Source: Rhodoferax sp. (GTDB taxonomy: Bacteria > Pseudomonadota > Gammaproteobacteria > Burkholderiales > Burkholderiaceae_C). Taken from it: DNA of 36,192 bases. The notes below the pieces were generated by a model. The model searched no databases and was not told the DNA's origin. It saw nothing but the letters and a program-made list of their open reading frames with translations. Below, in pieces: positions 16,090 to 16,701 of this stretch (position 1 is the stretch's first letter; every line of letters begins with the position of its first letter). The stretch is from contig JANYJD010000289.1 in the NCBI GenBank assembly GCA_025358555.1, forward strand, positions 1-36,192, in the 5' to 3' direction. The position numbers and the translations under genes are program-made.

Positions 16090-16701
16090 TCATTCCACTT
16101 CCAGCCGCAATTCCCGCTCTGCCACGCGCTGTTTCTCATCCAGCACTTGCAACGTCAGGCGGTGCCTGCCGGGGGGCACGCGGGCGTTGTCCAGCGAAAA
16201 GCCGTCTTTGGTCACGGTGACGAATTTGGTGATGCGGCTGGTGATGTCGATCTTGAGCGCGCCGTACATCACCTTGAAGGTGGCGGGGTCGATGGGGGAG
16301 TCCTGCTGGCCCTTGAACTGCACCGCAATTGCAAATGGCGCCTTGACCTTGAGATCGCTTGCCACTTCGGGCTTCAAAATGTCGATCAATGGCACGAGGG
16401 CGCGCGGACGCAGCGCGGGCTGTTCGTTGAAGCCCTCTTCGCCCTTGAAGTCACGCGCCTCACCGCCCGTGACCAGCCAGCCATCGGGCACCGGTGCCAA
16501 CGCGCCACCAGGCCGGTCTGGATTGACAGCGCCGCTTTGTTGGCTGGCGGTTTTGTCGATTTTTTGCGCGTTTTGGGAGTCATATGTGCCTTGAGCCCTT
16601 GCTGGAAGTGCACAAGCAGCTATTACTAAAATAGCAGCCAGCTTTCCTGCAAATTCGCAGCGGGGCTTGCCAGTGAACATCAGCGCGGCGGCGTGTGTCA
16701 T
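16090..16701 (-). CDS. Conserved secreted protein of unknown function (Ig-like)
   Basis: Signal peptide GKLAAILVIAACALPARA|QG; ATG at 16701 one base after the caspase TGA; C-terminal beta-rich VPPGRHRLTLQVLDEKQRVAERELRLEVE. Confidence 0.65.
   Translation of the reverse strand: MTHAAALMFTGKPRCEFAGKLAAILVIAACALPARAQGTYDSQNAQKIDKTASQQSGAVNPDRPGGALAPVPDGWLVTGGEARDFKGEEGFNEQPALRPRALVPLIDILKPEVASDLKVKAPFAIAVQFKGQQDSPIDPATFKVMYGALKIDITSRITKFVTVTKDGFSLDNARVPPGRHRLTLQVLDEKQRVAERELRLEVE
16587..16623 (-). repeat. 37-bp dispersed repeat core, copy D (encodes signal peptide)
   Basis: Minus strand: atagct gct tgtgca cttc cagc aagggct caaggca. Confidence 0.78.

Follow-up and report, generated by a model that had tools for sequence, protein, structure and literature searches.

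We analysed a 36,192-nucleotide stretch of a Rhodoferax sp. genome (GCA_025358555.1, contig JANYJD010000289.1; hereafter the window), in which a gene for a 203-residue protein, predicted to be exported and without a Pfam family (16090–16701, minus strand), carries one copy of a dispersed repeat, copy D, in its signal-peptide segment. Copy D belongs to a family of about 740 DNA sites, each of about 55 bp. It has probably taken over the hydrophobic region (h-region) and cleavage region (c-region) of an existing signal peptide, constrained at the level of DNA, with a protein probably recognising the site.

Copy D is a repeat-family member that encodes a signal-peptide core

Residues 1–36 (MTHAAALMFTGKPRCEFAGKLAAILVIAACALPARA|QG; 16594–16701, minus strand) would export the protein: inspection and a simple heuristic find a positive n-region, a hydrophobic core and an A-x-A cleavage site, the A-x-A|Q of which is kept in orthologues. 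A second possible ATG lies at residue 8. The h-region LAAILVIAACAL (16606–16641, minus strand; best 9-residue mean hydropathy 3.19) falls nearly entirely within copy D. The preliminary description of this DNA had read the h- and c-regions (KLAAILVIAACALPARA|QG) from the repeat, and its sequence, strand, frame and peptide were all reproduced; a repeat does lie where it was placed (16583–16650), with the best profile match slightly further 3′, at 16636–16571 on the minus strand. The cysteine of the IAAC motif is compatible with a lipobox as well, but this residue varies between Y, H and C among orthologues, with A-x-A|Q conserved instead.

Profiles from which copy D was excluded in both rounds recover it at 46.3 bits (E = 8.6e-12) and then 43.0 bits (E = 1.1e-10), against a top score of 9.8 bits in a reversed-genome control, which bears out its proposed place above the profile background. 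The profile made without copy D finds 742 copies genome-wide at E < 1e-3, and the conserved columns cover about 55 bp. Because the seed was a regular expression fixing ATAGCT and AAGGGCT, loosened in later profile rounds, the conservation of these letters is partly built in. An alanine- and isoleucine-rich signal peptide spelled in A/T-rich codons might mimic such a profile by coincidence, and the frame-0 peptide of the family does itself resemble a signal peptide. This explanation is refuted by the score of the left-out copy relative to the reversed genome, by synonymous shuffling of all genes (8 matches above 15 bits versus about 290) and by the signal peptides of orthologues from copy-poor genomes, which do not match.

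Copies D, E (NKEAYYAQPTKAKG; 19616–19674, minus strand, 28.5 bits) and F (VANYATLTWAAG; 25045–25097, minus strand, 36.0 bits) share one frame of the repeat, as first described. This is not a special property, because 132 of 166 sense in-gene readings genome-wide use that frame, as expected of a stop-free sense frame. Mean log relative usage is −1.42 for the 22 focal codons; random windows average −0.41 (s.d. 0.18) and the remaining codons of the gene −0.35. The focal codons include TTA, AGG and ATA, which account for 1.2%, 3.8% and 4.8% of their respective codon families. Given codons this rare, the spelling of the copy D segment is set by DNA rather than by protein.

Orthologous signal peptides track the copy load of their genomes

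Repeat DNA is present in the signal peptide of the orthologue in 9/14 copy-rich genomes (3 of the 9 matches being weak, 13–19 bits) and in 0/9 copy-poor genomes, which have few or no repeat copies (one-sided Fisher P = 0.0024, calculated by hand). The preliminary description, by which orthologues from repeat-free genomes should not share the nucleotide sequence, agrees with this result. In four genomes of Rhodoferax type, a profile of that type made without these copies scores the signal peptides at loci L023, L015, L029 and L017 at 22.6–32.5 bits. Metagenome orthologues L109, L110, L115, L120, L124 and L139 score 27–37 bits; these six are not all independent of the former four, some probably coming from the same organisms. 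The match also follows the genome of origin: the signal peptide of the same-genus sister genome (G001) scores 9.0 bits with the profile of the window genome (G000) versus 19.5 and 22.2 bits with G001 profiles excluding it, and copy D scores 43.0 bits with the G000 profile and 12.0 bits with the G001 profile.

The signal peptides of orthologues from copy-poor genomes are ordinary and equal in length, which means that the repeat took over a signal already present and did not create export. The proposal that a dispersed repeat became, or supplied, an export signal consequently holds in part: copy D does form the signal, but repeat-free orthologues manage with signal peptides of the same length. 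Copy D is neither a lone case nor a plain dispersed insertion, as there are dozens of signal-peptide copies, at positions common to different species.

The repeat recurs in other signal peptides

In the window genome, 74 genes bear an N-terminal copy (44 sense, 30 antisense), and the heuristic classes 36 of them as signal-peptide-like (22/44 sense, 14/30 antisense) versus 21% of all genes. A Pfam scan of 20 of these genes, picked for plausibility rather than at random, returned LolA, LolB, DsbD_N, TctC, DctP, SBP_bac_5, Peripla_BP_6, GSDH, SCO1 and SIMPL, mostly exported, with a few families not strictly so. LolA is the clearest second case of a site in a signal peptide, with a match of at least 10 bits in 8 copy-bearing genomes across genera and in 0/7 genomes without copies; the LolA signal peptides of copy-bearing G002, G008 and G017 gave no clear match. 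A DNA-level constraint is here seen to shape signal peptides across a bacterial family.

Three single cases are recorded alongside. G017, whose LolA signal peptide is without a site, is site-rich and has about 20 Y1_Tnp matches. The lipobox of LolB itself is apparently encoded by the repeat (FLIAGCAHPTRATG; G000 contig C343, about 17958–18009, minus strand). On G000 contig C258 (about 10102), an antisense copy encodes the signal-peptide core of a Peripla_BP_6 protein (MALKHALALVPCALLATLSIAQQ) and is common to G001.

The sites keep their positions and change their spelling

We compared copies with those in 1.16 Mb of G001, a part sample of one genome, anchored by 764 reciprocal best hits. Ninety of 174 G001 copies have a G000 counterpart with matching location and orientation (mean of 11.3 and maximum of 22 in permutations), and in 91/93 orthologous pairs each copy favours the profile of its own genome. 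Identity is 58.5% between orthologous copies, 51.3% for random between-genome pairs and 62.7% among copies of the window genome. The copies are spaced more evenly than by chance (gaps below 500 bp, 2.9% versus 10.6%) and A/T patches 3′ (downstream) of the core repeat at 10 bp; this period, together with the even spacing, would fit DNA bent or wrapped by a protein. A simple mobile element would not leave old positions with genome-wide respelling, and the family therefore points to a maintained DNA site, not a stray mobile repeat.

We propose that copy D sits in a coding segment that already specified a signal peptide, of which it would have taken over the h- and c-regions. Translated in one of the sense frames, the fixed bases give A-I-x-x-I-A-x-[YC]-A-x-x-[TA]-x-A, and one of the antisense frames yields a further hydrophobic stretch, which would allow signal peptides to house the site. 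The fixed bases would be held by a constraint on the DNA, probably through a putative protein that recognises them with genome-specific preference; the free bases show tuning toward hydrophobic residues and the A-x-A cleavage site.

Several points weigh against this proposal. The hydropathy contrast in the free columns (mean 1.75 for exported copies, n = 18, versus 0.60 for internal, P = 3e-6, and 0.96 for intergenic copies, P = 3e-4) is inflated because the 18 exported copies were picked partly for their signal-peptide look. The gene finder was home-made, and export status was assigned by the heuristic and Pfam. Five copy-rich genomes are without the focal copy, poor resolution in the mature-protein tree leaves the number of origins of the focal copy undecided, and we know of no binding protein for the site family. 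Some species-specific copies, finally, are clean in-frame linker insertions of about 19–28 residues, so copies may also come by insertion; among species-specific internal copies with well-aligned flanks, insertions of at least 12 residues account for 4/15 in G001 and 0/8 in G000. The remaining ones are gapless, some within conserved stretches of protein, and the coexistence of both kinds makes more than one route of origin likely.

Clean linker insertions are also what would be expected if the repeat were a small mobile element, akin to Rickettsia palindromic elements (RPEs) or to ERIC/RU, that had inserted in frame and been domesticated as an export signal. Open frames are strongly preferred, and there is precedent in the consulted part of PMC2759123: for Yersinia pestis YPO1552, RU-2 makes up part of the signal peptide predicted. 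RPEs are repeats read in frame in unrelated proteins (consulted part of PMC10969869), a trait that our repeat shares within unrelated genes. We nonetheless judge a mobile origin improbable: half of the sister-species copies stand at common positions yet the consensus is genome-specific, signal peptides with a copy are no longer than those without, the spacing is more even than random, and Y1_Tnp transposases do not track the presence of sites. Unlike RPEs (about 150 bp), the repeat combines positions common to species with a genome-wide consensus shift; unlike the small mobile RU/ERIC sequences of enterobacteria, described at few loci in the parts of Delihas 2007 (PMC2759123) consulted, it occupies dozens of signal peptides in both orientations, conserved across genera. 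The same portions of PMC2759123 and PMC10969869 hold no account of conserved positions with a shifting consensus.

Distribution among genomes

A covariance model using sequence alone finds the repeat in 18/40 genomes of the window's own taxonomic family, the window genome included; its counts are lower bounds, as no more than 68–150 candidates per genome were scored. Among 80 other genomes from the order, all but one from other families, it was found in 0/80 under stricter filters. Site-rich and site-free genera stand side by side in the window's own family. Two candidates to account for this pattern were rejected: the competence gene ComEC as a discriminator, which is nearly universal (17/18 site-bearing genomes and also 20/22 others), and RAYT/Y1_Tnp as a driver, which is present both with and without sites.

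The patchy presence bears on a narrower form of the maintained-site reading, in which the sites are architectural, serving gyrase, a nucleoid protein or segregation, and lie in signal peptides merely because these are tolerant segments. One-sided A/T patches, the 10-bp period and even spacing would suit a DNA-bending or DNA-wrapping protein. There is no candidate protein, however, and if the sites served gyrase or another universal protein, presence in 18/40 genomes of one family would be surprising. We give this version an appreciable but minority chance.

Comparison with known site families

The uptake signal sequences (USS) of Pasteurellaceae have a conserved core and A/T patches spaced by about one turn of the helix; they are shorter than the repeat, and their core is unrelated to it. 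A parallel in pattern is offered by the dialects of DNA uptake sequences (DUS) in Neisseriaceae, which are marked by many sites spelled in a genome-specific way (Frye 2013, PMC3630211). As in those dialects, copies are many, both genic and intergenic, and the consensus is uniform within a genome and different among related genomes; the genome-specific consensus at common positions seen in the sister comparison is a DUS/USS trait. The short core of DUS and USS, about 9–12 bases, is not found here, as the conserved columns span about 55 bp, some five times the 10–12 of DUS. Neisseria DUS, moreover, show under-representation in phase-variable and/or signal-peptide-containing genes (PMC2397512), whereas this repeat recurs in signal-peptide segments. 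Membership among DUS is not claimed, because the length is not DUS-like and an uptake role is only putative.

The repeat's diagnostic strings returned no relevant context in the open-access literature, to which the search was confined, with subscription papers outside it. A large site family, conserved in position with genome-specific spelling, is apparently undescribed. More tentatively, and with the odds rather against it, these could be hundreds of long, protein-recognised sites of a kind not described before, perhaps signals for uptake of self-DNA, respelled genome-wide with their positions kept, which rewrote the signal peptides of many exported proteins, among them the essential LolA. 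The reader of the sites, if found, could uncover a new system for self-recognition or for organising the chromosome.

Other features of the window

The window contig is part of a 4.75-Mb genome with 61% G+C. An Rfam scan of the window gave no match. Five further copies of the repeat lie in it: one in sense within gene 216–1895, in another frame than copy D (1591–1657, plus strand, 52.3 bits); one antisense in gene 4770–7478 (6237–6302, minus strand, 44.2 bits); one antisense near the start of gene 7475–8236 (7539–7609, minus strand, 43.3 bits); and two intergenic (14388–14456, plus strand, 64.7 bits; 27933–28000, minus strand, 58.4 bits). Copy E lies inside a CHASE2 gene (18880–20415, minus strand, by Pfam) and is also present in the CHASE2 orthologue of the same-genus genome.

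The upstream neighbour of the 203-residue protein is a caspase-like gene with Peptidase_C14 and DUF4384 matches in Pfam (16703–18673, minus strand); the ATG of the focal gene begins one base past its stop codon, and the caspase-like/DUF4384 and CHASE2 genes (16703–20415) together adjoin the focal gene. Judged by eye, apparently the same caspase-like/DUF4384 neighbour stands at orthologous loci L010 and L011. At L012 (G016) a distant homologue adjoins an apparent CHAT-type peptidase gene.
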